A DNA stretch of 64,000 nucleotides from Agaricus subrufescens (Eukaryota > Basidiomycota > Agaricomycetes > Agaricales > Agaricaceae). Below are positions 55,118 through 59,665 of this stretch, in pieces. Position numbers and translations under genes: made by a program. Position 1 is the first letter of the stretch; each line of letters opens with the position of its first letter. Under the pieces are notes generated by a model that saw only the letters and a program-made list of their open reading frames with translations, was not told the DNA's origin and did not search any database. The stretch lies in contig CM057060.1 in the NCBI GenBank assembly GCA_029945375.1, positions 868,001 to 932,000 on the forward strand, in the 5' to 3' direction.

Positions 55118-55413
55118 TCAGGTTCCCTTTTGCTGCTTGATTAAGTCTTTCCATAGACCTTGTTTTTTAGCATTAGTATTAGGGAACAAACTAATGTGTC
55201 TGCTTCCTTACCCTTGAACTTGTCTCTTTTCCTTTCAATGGGGTGGTTCATTCCATCTTGTTTGGTTTGGTGGTAGTAAGGAGCAATACAGTAGCATCTT
55301 TTGTTTTTATTCCCAAGGAAAAAAGCAATTTGACCATTAGGGGCTGCTCCACAAATAAGCACTGGTAACTTTGGTGATGCATTCAAGAACTTCTTTGTTT
55401 TGTCATCAATAAC
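55118..55413 (-). CDS. exon downstream of the 71-bp array (C-terminal part of the micro-exon gene)
   Basis: Open from an acceptor (ACAAG, before 55413) in phase 0: VIDDKTKKFLNASPKLPVLI, CGAAPNGQIAFFLGNKNKR, CYCIAPYYHQTKQDGMNHP, then basic IERKRDKFKG. It either stops at 55141-55143 (90 aa), or a GTAAGG..CAAG intron of about 53 nt leads to GLWKDLIKQQKGT and a stop at 55118-55120. Four Cys and an alternating hydrophobic pattern suggest a folded domain; no family is recognised. It has no start codon of its own in a good place, and the single-codon exons to its right join it in frame, which argues that it belongs to the same transcript as the array. Confidence 0.45.
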
Positions 55414-57393
55414 CTTGTAGAAATAGAGTGAAATGAGCATTTAAAGACCACACTAATTGATATACTTACATCCTGATTGAACACAATGGTGCAGAAAAAA
55501 ACATGGTCAGTCACAACCACAGACTACTAGCTAATAAACTTGCAAGCTAGTGCAAAGGAGTTGTAAAGTGAAAATAATCAATGACATGCCATAGATTATT
55601 CACTGAGAAACTTACTTTCTAATTCAGAACAAGAATTTATAAAAGAAAAAATAATCAGTCACAAACTACAGGTCACCAACTTGTGGACTTACAAACTGAT
55701 GCACACCAATTGTGAAAGAGAAAATGATCAGTCACACACCACAGGTCACCAACTCATGGACTTACAACCTAGTCCAGAAATTGTGAAAGAGAAAATGATT
55801 AGTCACACACCACAGGTCACCAACTCATGGACTTACATCCTAGTCCAGAAATTGTGAAAGAGAAAATGATCAGTCACACACCACAGGTCACCAACTCATG
55901 GACTTACATCCTAGTCCAGTGGAAAGAGAAAATGATCAGTCACACACCACAGGTCACCAACTCATGGACTTACATCCTAGTCCAGAAATTGTGAAAGAGA
56001 AAATGATCAGTCACACACACGTCACCAACTCATGGACATCCTGTCCAGAAATTGGAAAGAGAAAACGATCAGTCACAGTCCAGACTCAACTTGTGAAAAG
56101 AAGAGAAATGATCAGTCACACACCACAGGTCACCAACCATGGACTTACAAGCTAGTCCAGAAATTGTGAAAGAGAAATATCAGGGACTCATCTTACATCC
56201 TAGTCCAGAAATTGTGAAAGAGAAAATGATCAGTCACACACCACAGGTCACCAACTCATGGACTTACAAGCTAGTCCAGAAATTGTGAAAGAGAAAATGA
56301 TCAGTCACACACCACAGGTCACCAACTCATGGACTTACATCCTAGTCCAGAAATTGTGAAAGAGAAAATGATCAGTCACACACCACAGGTCACCAACTCA
56401 TGGACTTACAAGCTAGTCCAGAAATTGCGAAAGAGAAAATGATCAGTCACACACCACAGGTCACCAACTCATGGACTTACAACCTAGTCCCGAAATTGCG
56501 AAAGAGAAAATGATCAGTCACACACCACAGGTCACCAACTCATGGACTTACAACCTAGTCCAGAAATTGTGAAAGAGAAAATGATCAGTCACACACCACA
56601 GGTCACCAACTCATGGACTTACAAGCTAGTCCAGAAATTGTGAAAGAGAAAATGATCAGTCACACACCACAGGTCACCAACCCATAGCTAGTCCAGAAAT
56701 TGTGAAAGAGAAAATGATCAGTCACACACCACAGGTCACCAACTCATGGACTTACAGCTAGTCCAGAAATTGTGAAAGAGAAAATGATCAGTCACACACC
56801 ACAGGTCACCAACTCATGGACTTACATCCTAGTCCAGAAATTGTGAAAGAGAAAATGATCAGTCACACACCACAGGTCACCAACTCATGGACTTACATGC
56901 TAGTCCAGAAATTGTGAAAGAGAAAATGATCAGTCACACACCACAGGTCACCAACTCATGGACTTACATCCTAGTCCAGAAATTGTGAAAGAGAAAATGA
57001 TCAGTCACATACCACAGGTCACCAACTCATGGACTTACAAGCTAGTCCAGAAATTGTGAAAGAGAAAATGATCAGTCACACACCACAGGTCACCAACTCA
57101 TGGACTTACATCCTAGTCCAGAAATTGTGAAAGAGAAAATGATCAGTCACACACCACAGGTCACCAACTCATGGACTTACATCCTAGTCCAGAAATTGTG
57201 AAAGAGAAAATGATCAGTCACACACCACAGGTCACCAACTCATGGACTTACAAGCTAGTCCAGAAATTGCGAAAGAGAAAATGATCAGTCACACACCACA
57301 GGTCACCAACTCATGGACTTACATCCTAGTCCAGAAATTGTGAAAGAGAAAATGATCAGTCACACACCACAAATCACCAACTCATGGACTGAC
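55414..57393 (-). repeat. 71-bp tandem array: 68-nt intron units separated by 3-nt exons
   Basis: About 27 tandem units on the minus strand. A full unit is a 68-nt intron (donor GTAAGTCC, branch GACTGATCA, tract TTTTCTCTTTCAC, acceptor CTGGACTAG) plus 3 nt. The 3-nt pieces lie at 57323, 57252, 57181, 57110, 57039, 56968, 56897, 56826, 56623, 56552, 56481, 56410, 56339, 56268, 56197, 56149, 56038, 55974, 55908, 55837, 55766, 55693, 55616, 55544 and 55470 (left coordinates). They read GAT x12, CTT x7, GTT x3, and CAT, TTT, AAA once each. One piece (56756) is 2 nt, and units near 56680 and 56080 have lost a donor. Unit spacing is 71 bp in the right half and 64-77 bp in the diverged left part. 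Confidence 0.95.
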
Positions 57394-59665
57394 CGATATA
57401 ACCATACGTGTTTCATTATCTTGATAATCAATGTATATATCTTCAAGAAGGGCCTCACTAAACATCCCACTCTTCATAGGCACATGTTGATATTTCTGTA
57501 ATAACAGTGAGACTAGGACGTCTTCGATGTTTTGTATGAGTTACCATCCAAGTTTGAAATGCTAGATGGACAAATCTAAACAGCATCAACGGAGCGTTGC
57601 GTAGAGTCAAGGGACCATCCCCAGATTTGCAAAGACGGATCATGTTGATATTTCGTAAAGAGTTAAAACTCTCAACGTGCTTCTGCTGTGATCCTTCCGA
57701 GAATACCGGGCGAGGTTTGTGCCTCTCAACGATCTGATACAGCAGTGTTTGGCTCATATCCTTGAGCATACCAGTGGTAAATTCCGGAGTTCCCCACATG
57801 TTGTCGTGGAATGATTCGCTAAGAGGGGCTGAAAGCCGGTATGAGCACTCCTCAAATATGATGATGATATATTCAAACATACCTGCATTATCCCCGAAAT
57901 GTCTATACCACATCGCGAGATATCCCAACACCACATCATCGTCCACACCGTCAACATCAATACAAAACTCTCCTGATCTTTTCGCGTCCGTCAAATAGTC
58001 GGGGAAAGAAGCGTGTAAGAACGTCAACGGTTTTTCATGTGCTTCTTCCCAAGGCGGTATCATGAGTATTGATATGCAGTTGATGAGAGCAGAATAGACG
58101 TCGTGAGGCTCTAGCTGGAGAATCATGGACATGCCTTTGAGAGTTCGGGACTTTGAACGAGGACCGAGCCCTAGAAATCTGTTACTGCGGAATGACAATG
58201 CCAGCCCGAGCAAGAGTTTTGTTGTGGTCAACACCGCCGGTGAAACTTGAGAGAGGATCGCCGCATACAAGTTGTCGAGAATTTTGAAGGGCTGCTCCAC
58301 AGGTGCCACTCCATTGGAACGATCAATAACAGCTAGGACGATCTCGAGGCGCGAGACAGGGTTAGAGCGACCAGGATCCTTGACAAATCGAGCTGCGGTT
58401 TCGGCGAAGATGAAGAGGCCAGAAGATGCCGCTGTCAGCTTCGCAAGCCGTGCTTCCCCAGGCCAATCCACTGGGACAGGGCCAAAAGATTCATCTCGTA
58501 TGGTATTGAAGCTGTCAACCAGGAAGTGTCGAACATCCTCGCGAGCATCCTCTGCGTCAATGAAAATAGACTGTGATTCAAACCGGCCTTGTATCGAGCG
58601 CTCTTTGAACGTGCTAGTTATCTGGAACTCCGGACGACTCGCAATAATCCATGCGAGGGGCGTGTCACGATACTCCTGTGTGAACTTGCTGATGATTCGT
58701 ATGATGTCCCGTTGGGGTTCCACACCATCGACCTCGTCAAGCCCATCCAGCAATATAGCCATAGGTCGACCACCCGCTCCAATCTTCCTTACTCCAAACG
58801 GCTCAGTGATGAAGGCTCGGAATTGAGTCTCCATGTTTTTGGTGAGAATGTCGCGGTTTGTAGCAATCAGTTCCACGATATAGTCACGGTAAGGCTTGAT
58901 ACGTTTGGCGAGTTGATATGCGAAACTGATGAAGATACGCTTTGGATCGTTACGGTCGTTCGGTCGCGAAATAAATACAGAGATGACACGATCATCTATA
59001 GATTCCGCAAAAGTTTGCATGATGGCAGATTTACCGACCCCAGCTGGTCCACTAATCAGGAAAAGGGAATTCGAGCGGAGGATGTCGTTGAACCAGGTAC
59101 GGAGTAATTCGAGAATTGCTTCACGTGTACCAGGATGACACCTGGGAGGGTATTGGCGCGAAGAATCATCATGGGCTGCACCAGTAAGGATATACTTCAG
59201 AATCAACTCCATGACTAGGGATAGGTGAATGAGCCTGAATCCTGACAGGACGATAAACTAATTCTTACTCTGGTAGACTGGATCCTCCTTGTGTATTTCT
59301 GTCACGTTCCCGTGTATTTCTGTCACGTTCAGATTGCCAATATTGGTGTGGTCGGCTCCGGATAAGACACTAGTTGAACCAGAACGAGCTGCGAGAATTA
59401 TGAACTCCTGACTGTCATGAAAGCATATAAAGAAACGCACCTTGGATGTCCAAAGAAACCATGGCAGGACCTTCGGAACCAGATGGATAGACCACGCTAG
59501 CAGTAGACGTCGGGTGGGGGGCTTGAACGGGGCCTGAAGCGATGATGAATTATGACCGTAGTTTCTAGCGAAAGTACGCGTCAACATACCAGAGATGGCC
59601 AGTACTGGCCCAGCAGAGCCTGAGCTTCCAGACCCAGAATCAACTACAGGATTGTCGACAGGCAT
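57394..59665 (-). CDS. NACHT-domain NLR-like protein, N-terminal and central part
   Basis: STAND-type NTPase of the fungal NLR class. Exons 59590-59665, 59441-59533, 59269-59388, 57883-59214, 57545-57828 and 57394-57495 (669 codons, open at the 3' end). Ser/Gly/Pro-rich N-terminus; tandem NVTEIH repeat; the entry motif RCHPGTREAILELLRTWF common before basidiomycete NACHT domains; Walker A SGPAGVGKSAIMQ; Walker B MAILLDGLDEVDG; sensor WIIASRPEFQ; then a winged/helical region. No WD40, ankyrin or TPR repeats follow. Unspliced, the frame stops at 57458. With a 49-nt intron (57496-57544, GTAACT..ACAG) it avoids that stop, reads KYQHVPMKSGMFSEALLEDI and more, and reaches a GTCAGT donor at the array in phase 0. 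Confidence 0.8.

Follow-up and report, generated by a model that had tools for sequence, protein, structure and literature searches.

About two dozen related genes in the genome of Agaricus subrufescens carry, between conserved exons, an array of units that each consist of an in-phase sense codon and an intron. The arrays are located near the 3' end of NLR-type genes, and the one described most fully here lies on the minus strand of the window, the 64,000-nucleotide stretch of DNA that was analyzed. The most probable explanation, to which we give roughly three chances in four, is that the array specifies, with one residue per exon, a hypervariable segment in the C-terminal part of an NLR, the introns serving both splicing and recombination. 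Splicing and translation of the array codons, selection upon them, and a part for them in recognition are all suggested by sequence features. Translation of the codons after stepwise removal of the introns appears to be the best explanation because the donors are fixed, the spacing is fixed, the flanks are in phase, and the codons are hypervariable. The parts of the window gene are as follows, all on the minus strand and in order of reading.

57545 to 59212, minus strand: first coding exon, encoding an NLR-type P-loop NTPase, with its ATG at 59212 (from Pfam and homologues)
57496 to 57544, minus strand: ordinary 49-nt intron with the donor GTAACT (from sequence; position common to 15 members)
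57394 to 57495, minus strand: conserved 102-nt exon before the array, ending in phase 0, KYQHVPMKSGMFSEALLEDIYIDYQDNETRMVIS (from sequence)
55414 to 57393, minus strand: array of 24 single-codon exons between introns, with damaged units in addition (from sequence)
56626 to 56825, minus strand: 2-nt exon (CT) and then a donor-less unit, 200 nt between two triplets (from sequence)
55977 to 56148, minus strand: degenerate array stretch, 172 nt between two triplets (from sequence)
55141 to 55413, minus strand: last exon, VIDDKTKKFLNASPKLPVLICG..., with its start in phase 0 and, if there is no further intron, an open frame as far as a TAA at 55141 (from sequence)

Between 57393 and 55414 of the minus strand, 24 triplets are flanked by YAG on the 5' side and G(T/C)AAG on the 3' side. 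The order of the first half is GAT CTT GAT GAT CTT GAT CAT GAT CTT GTT GTT CTT and that of the second half is GAT CTT GAT CTT GAT GAT GAT GTT TTT AAA CTT GAT (GAT 11, CTT 7, GTT 3, and CAT, TTT, and AAA once each). The first donor, GTCAGT at 57393, and the last acceptor, CTACAAG ending at 55414, are exactly where the original prediction had placed them; one other donor is GCAAGT, and the triplets precede GTAAGT or a close variant of it. Tandem Repeats Finder (TRF) reports a 71-bp array of 24.7 copies with 87% matches. The expectation of about 25 single-codon exons with near-identical 68-nt introns was borne out by the 24 triplets; the spans between coding pieces are 68 nt in 16 of 25 cases and 45, 56, 63, 69, 70, 71, 74, 172, and 200 nt in the other nine, the two longest covering damaged units. 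Similarly, a full set of splice signals with exactly 3 nt per unit had been claimed throughout, and this is true of the 24 triplets but fails at three damaged places: a 2-nt exon, CT, which would break the reading frame if included; a unit without a donor; and the degenerate span of 172 nt. The introns of the last units have diverged (70, 74, 69, 71, and 56 nt), yet the 3-nt exons and splice signals are retained there. Both flanking exons are in phase 0, as predicted, and any subset of the triplets would preserve the frame.

The 584-amino acid open reading frame of the window gene (57458-59212, minus strand) reads through the ordinary intron to 57458. Pfam matches in this gene are NPHP3_N at 62.3 bits (cut-off 24.8) and AAA_16 at 38.8 bits (cut-off 32.6), with NACHT (PF05729) at 23.7 bits falling under its cut-off of 26.7; the gene of another array, C9b, matches NPHP3_N at 48.0 bits, and PF05729 is again under the cut-off. 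The window reading frame has 1,242 homologues at E <= 0.001, and the type is that of NACHT/NPHP3 proteins. The best four of the 1,242 are metagenome proteins with 72-76% identity, while the named homologues used for taxonomic placement, out of 120 listed, belong to Macrolepiota fuliginosa, to Leucoagaricus, and to Agaricus bisporus, the last aligning to parts of the query at 38-53% identity. They place the host in the Agaricomycetes and speak against a truffle, which the truffle precedent had made worth considering. The window gene is thus a predicted fungal NLR with a NACHT/NB-ARC-like P-loop NTPase. C-terminal WD40, ANK, or TPR repeats are common, though not universal, among fungal NLR (STAND NTPase) genes; no Pfam match to any of the three was found at E <= 0.1 in the two-flank joined model of the C9b gene, in which the array was left out. 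Close to the NLR start codon, on its upstream side, window positions 59291-59330 hold a direct repeat of 21 bp, in 1.9 copies with 100% matches.

The same genome contains 37 and 98 DNA matches to two array segments, on contigs C1, C4, C6, C8, C9, C13, C25, and C27. From these loci 24 arrays were parsed, namely 23 and a four-codon member, C9c; a further copy at C6:1843754-1845508 stands outside the 24. When the near-identical C27, C25b, C25c, C25d, and C6d are left out, 19 non-copy arrays remain, with 4-31 codons each. Two unit types, of 71 nt and 72 nt, occur across the 24 arrays. A pattern of three successive donors separated by two 3-nt exons was found 155 + 152 times genome-wide against 0 + 0 for the reversed pattern, and among the matches listed all are inside known array loci. 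The last exon has 25 matches in the genome and the upstream exon 12; the last-exon matches at C13:1365267 and C1:5834884 hold a stop, and further last-exon matches are at C7:2389511 and C25:126998. A P-loop reading frame is present upstream in seven of nine loci with long flanks and absent at C1a and C13b. Read in phase 0, the upstream exon gives family sequence in all 18 of the 24 arrays where it is readable, and the last exon, read from the acceptor in the same phase, does so in all 12. The family pattern, from ten members, is GMFxEVxxKDIxID...YMV, then the array, then VIDDxTKxFLxxSPNLxVLICGxxPGGQVA...YCIVPY.

Individual members differ in condition. The smallest, C9c (C9:1980765-1981357; L082:1066-1658), has four codons, GGT CCT CCT GTG, between both conserved exons and offers a small natural test case; the design is retained even there. 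In C6g (C6:2804500-2806400) the upstream exon has a stop and the signals are weak or lost in several units, and this is probably a dying copy. Some copies of the array may be dead, given the damaged array of the window and the stop in C6g. Contig C27 ends within a copy of the window array (C27:64498-65495 compared with window 55414-57393); the flanks are identical over 1,203 aligned bases, and within the array there are numerous substitutions and small indels. This copy may be the allele of the other nucleus or may reflect assembly or sequencing noise.

To describe spacing, junctions were located by a profile of intron interiors alone, so the units were not chosen by the signals being tested. 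In the 24 arrays, 345 of 372 junctions so located have the strict pattern YAG-3 nt-donor. Inspection of the other 27 by eye found five with another AG upstream, three with AAG, 11 with a weaker GT donor, and eight that are broken, which puts AG-3 nt-GT in some form at 364 of the 372. Where one GTAAGT is followed by another and a YAG precedes the latter by 0-9 nt, the gap is exactly 3 nt in 323 of 325 spans (24 arrays). Among the 19 non-copy arrays the donor is GTAAGT in 295 of 316 cases, while the ordinary upstream intron has this donor in none of 15 readable members. Donor letters differ from the array consensus at 38 of 1,896 positions and interior letters at 640 of 12,384 (Fisher p 4e-11, for units that are not independent). 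Estimates of donor and acceptor diversity from units picked by their signals are biased low, and the interior-profile junctions and the donor tally are fairer measures. Because the units are related by duplication, all such p-values overstate the evidence and the spacings are not independent events. We also estimate that conservation of exon length, taken alone, is indistinguishable from the ordinary indel rate, the exon bases being too few.

The better conservation of donors than of interiors bears on a different reading, in which splicing removes the entire array as a single long intron and its units are a minisatellite with functionless triplets and signals. Tandem arrays can expand by slippage or exchange without any function, and the window array is partly damaged. 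Against this, the diverged last units have kept their splice signals, one design is found in 24 arrays with two unit types, diversity is concentrated at two codon letters, and the ordinary introns adjoining the arrays measure about 50 nt while the window array measures 1,980 nt. We consider a minisatellite of this kind improbable.

Unit length has also to be weighed, as the repeats might encode a repeat protein directly, on either strand and without splicing. The 72-nt unit of some arrays is a multiple of three, and open stretches reach 365 amino acids antisense in C9b and 244 (C6e) and 229 (C8c) amino acids in the sense direction. The window unit, however, is 71 nt, with longest open stretches of 103 amino acids antisense and 36 sense; the strand that is open varies by array, and other unit lengths break the frames, so that direct coding is scarcely credible. 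The antisense stretch of C9b (L070:4598-5695, mostly 72-nt units) is a 24-residue repeat and likely a chance effect of unit length. A further reading takes the introns themselves as the product, releasing small RNA in the style of the SNORD115/116 host gene, which likewise has many tandem near-identical introns and trivial exons, as described in part of PMC11608373. The SNORD115/116 introns yield snoRNAs, whereas no Rfam match was found at E <= 1 in window 55300-57500; an RNA of some undescribed family may be present, but small RNA would explain neither the codon diversity nor the conserved in-phase flanks, and we regard it as very unlikely.

Stepwise splicing of translated codons accords with the way in which the units vary. 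The triplets had been predicted to be the main variable sites, and they are: mean diversity between units is 0.639 at codon position 1, 0.715 at position 2, and 0.185 at position 3, compared with 0.104 in intron interiors (for the 20 of 24 arrays, three of them copies, that have at least six units of modal length). Of 17 non-copy arrays, 13 have their two most diverse columns at codon positions 1 and 2 (C4a by a tie). The 331 codons of the 19 non-copy arrays include all 20 residues and 285 of the form NNT; stops number 0 against 2.4 expected, which is a weak point because an NNT codon cannot be a stop. Between the members of five near-identical pairs of arrays, there are differences at 11 of 132 sites of codon positions 1 and 2 and at 99 of 5,209 intron sites (pooled Fisher p 7e-5, from one genome), but the codon changes are confined to three of the pairs and the other two have none; C13b and C25b show no codon change though their introns differ at 38 of 1,076 sites.

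Blocks of codons have also moved. C1a and C1b, about 28 kb apart, have in common a six-codon block of 358 nt at 98.6% identity, while their introns average 87.6% (304 pairs), and this is one clear case of exchange of repeats between paralogues. Within single arrays, a five-codon block is repeated in C6e at 94-95% identity and a four-codon block in C9b at 98.6%. Such repetition within arrays and sharing between them agree with the suggestion of an expanding intron-plus-codon element. Shared four-codon words number four within arrays, a count as high in 31 of 1,000 shuffles, and three between arrays, as high in 149 of 1,000 and so not above the shuffles. Codons seem to change by block exchange together with substitution. 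Tentatively, and as something a little short of probable, the codons could be shuffled one by one: cassettes for the single residues of an NLR sensor segment, with introns for homology arms, would recombine in frame within and between genes, and splicing would join the result.

The location of the variation also matters for a reading in which diversity arises chiefly by alternative splicing, with codon subsets differing by cell or condition and many peptides coming from each gene. Leaving out any of the 3-nt exons would keep the frame intact, and alternative splicing is reported for truffle NACHT microexons in passages of PMC4986451, PMC3689799, and PMC10197012. The donors, however, are almost uniformly optimal (GTAAGT in the proportion given above), which suggests constant use, and the variation observed lies in the DNA of the units and copies. 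Alternative splicing as the main source is possible, though we think it rather unlikely, and the making of variable peptides through a choice of triplets, which the original prediction had put forward, is a conjecture here. It is the chief rival among readings in which the codons are translated, as the minisatellite is among the others.

The place of the array in the protein can be judged from A. bisporus, where NPHP3_N/NACHT proteins (P0012, P0019, and others) are homologous to the predicted receptors, the C-terminus included. The last exon is homologous to an A. bisporus NLR C-terminus (hhalign probability 95.9, E 5.1e-09, 40 columns). When the joined C-terminus was used to look for homologues in other species, nothing among 37 candidates scored at E <= 0.001. 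An AlphaFold2 model of P0019 (mean pLDDT 83.2, pTM 0.74, 42 sequences) has a small alpha/beta domain at its C-terminal end, and ungapped extension of the hhalign match would put the array near the start of helix 660-676. In the gene models of the A. bisporus paralogues, an ordinary, variable segment replaces the array at this position. The gene model of P0012 (Agabi119p4_10318), which is the closest of the named homologues, contains some 21 unmatched residues there, and these might be derived from microexons. Gene prediction is likely to miss microexon genes of this type; the six metagenome gene models listed all stop at, or read into, an intron that precedes the last conserved exon.

A donor whose entire pairing with U1 falls on intron letters would leave the letters of the exon free for any codon. 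The array donors would match U1 wholly within the intron, making any codon possible in the exon, and intron definition would allow each intron to be removed in its turn. Once joined, the codons would form a variable segment some 4-31 residues long, which may bear on what the receptor recognizes. Near-identical introns would also provide long homology for unequal exchange and conversion, by which codons could be added, dropped, and swapped in frame, with selection for new specificities maintaining codon diversity and exchange keeping the introns alike. Alternative inclusion of codons may contribute extra variants, as reported for the truffle. If splicing is confirmed, the spliceosome handles 3-nt exons in long series, every signal being intronic, and the variable segment of a receptor can be read residue by residue; if codons are also included combinatorially in the RNA, a very large receptor repertoire could come from one genome.

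Schistosoma micro-exon genes (MEGs) resemble the arrays in being strings of small exons with lengths divisible by three, but their exons are longer, their products are secreted, and they belong to a different kingdom. The abstract of Iotti et al. 2012 is said to compare the truffle genes with these MEGs. The original prediction that no tandem array of this type was known does not stand, as PMC3689799, PMC4986451, and PMC10197012 attribute to Iotti et al. 2012 the report of tens of codon-sized (3-bp) microexons, subject to alternative splicing, in NACHT genes of Tuber melanosporum. A passage of PMC11121469 states that functional microexons have not been described in filamentous fungi, which is at odds with the truffle reports. 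As far as those truffle passages go, the likeness is in NACHT-type NLR genes of a fungus, in an expanded family, and in tens of 3-bp exons, of which the window gene has 24 by sequence. The truffle is an ascomycete with NACHT-ANK genes, whereas the host here is an agaricomycete and the joined model has no ankyrin repeats; for this reason the gene was not classed as a nank gene. Alternative splicing is reported for the truffle microexons, whereas the architecture here is known from DNA. The window gene may best be filed as an NLR working like the truffle microexon genes.

The WD/ANK/TPR NLRs of Podospora anserina (HET-D/E/R type), as part of PMC4986451 describes them, also have near-identical C-terminal repeats with few hypervariable sites and exchange between paralogues. 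In the arrays, as in NLRs of the Podospora type, the units stay similar to one another and strong variation falls on a few sites. In Podospora whole domains are repeated as ordinary coding sequence; in the arrays an intron is repeated and a single codon is the variable part. The likeness is one of manner of evolution. No account of arrays like these in basidiomycete NLRs was found in the open-licence literature, outside which most subscription journals lie; in that literature the architecture, present here in about two dozen genes of one agaricomycete genome, was found described only for the truffle. The new evidence is that single-codon exons diversify in DNA far beyond their introns, with in-frame exchange of blocks. 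Codon-sized microexon NLR genes were already known, and the arrays of A. subrufescens are a second case, from another phylum, with diversification at the level of DNA added.
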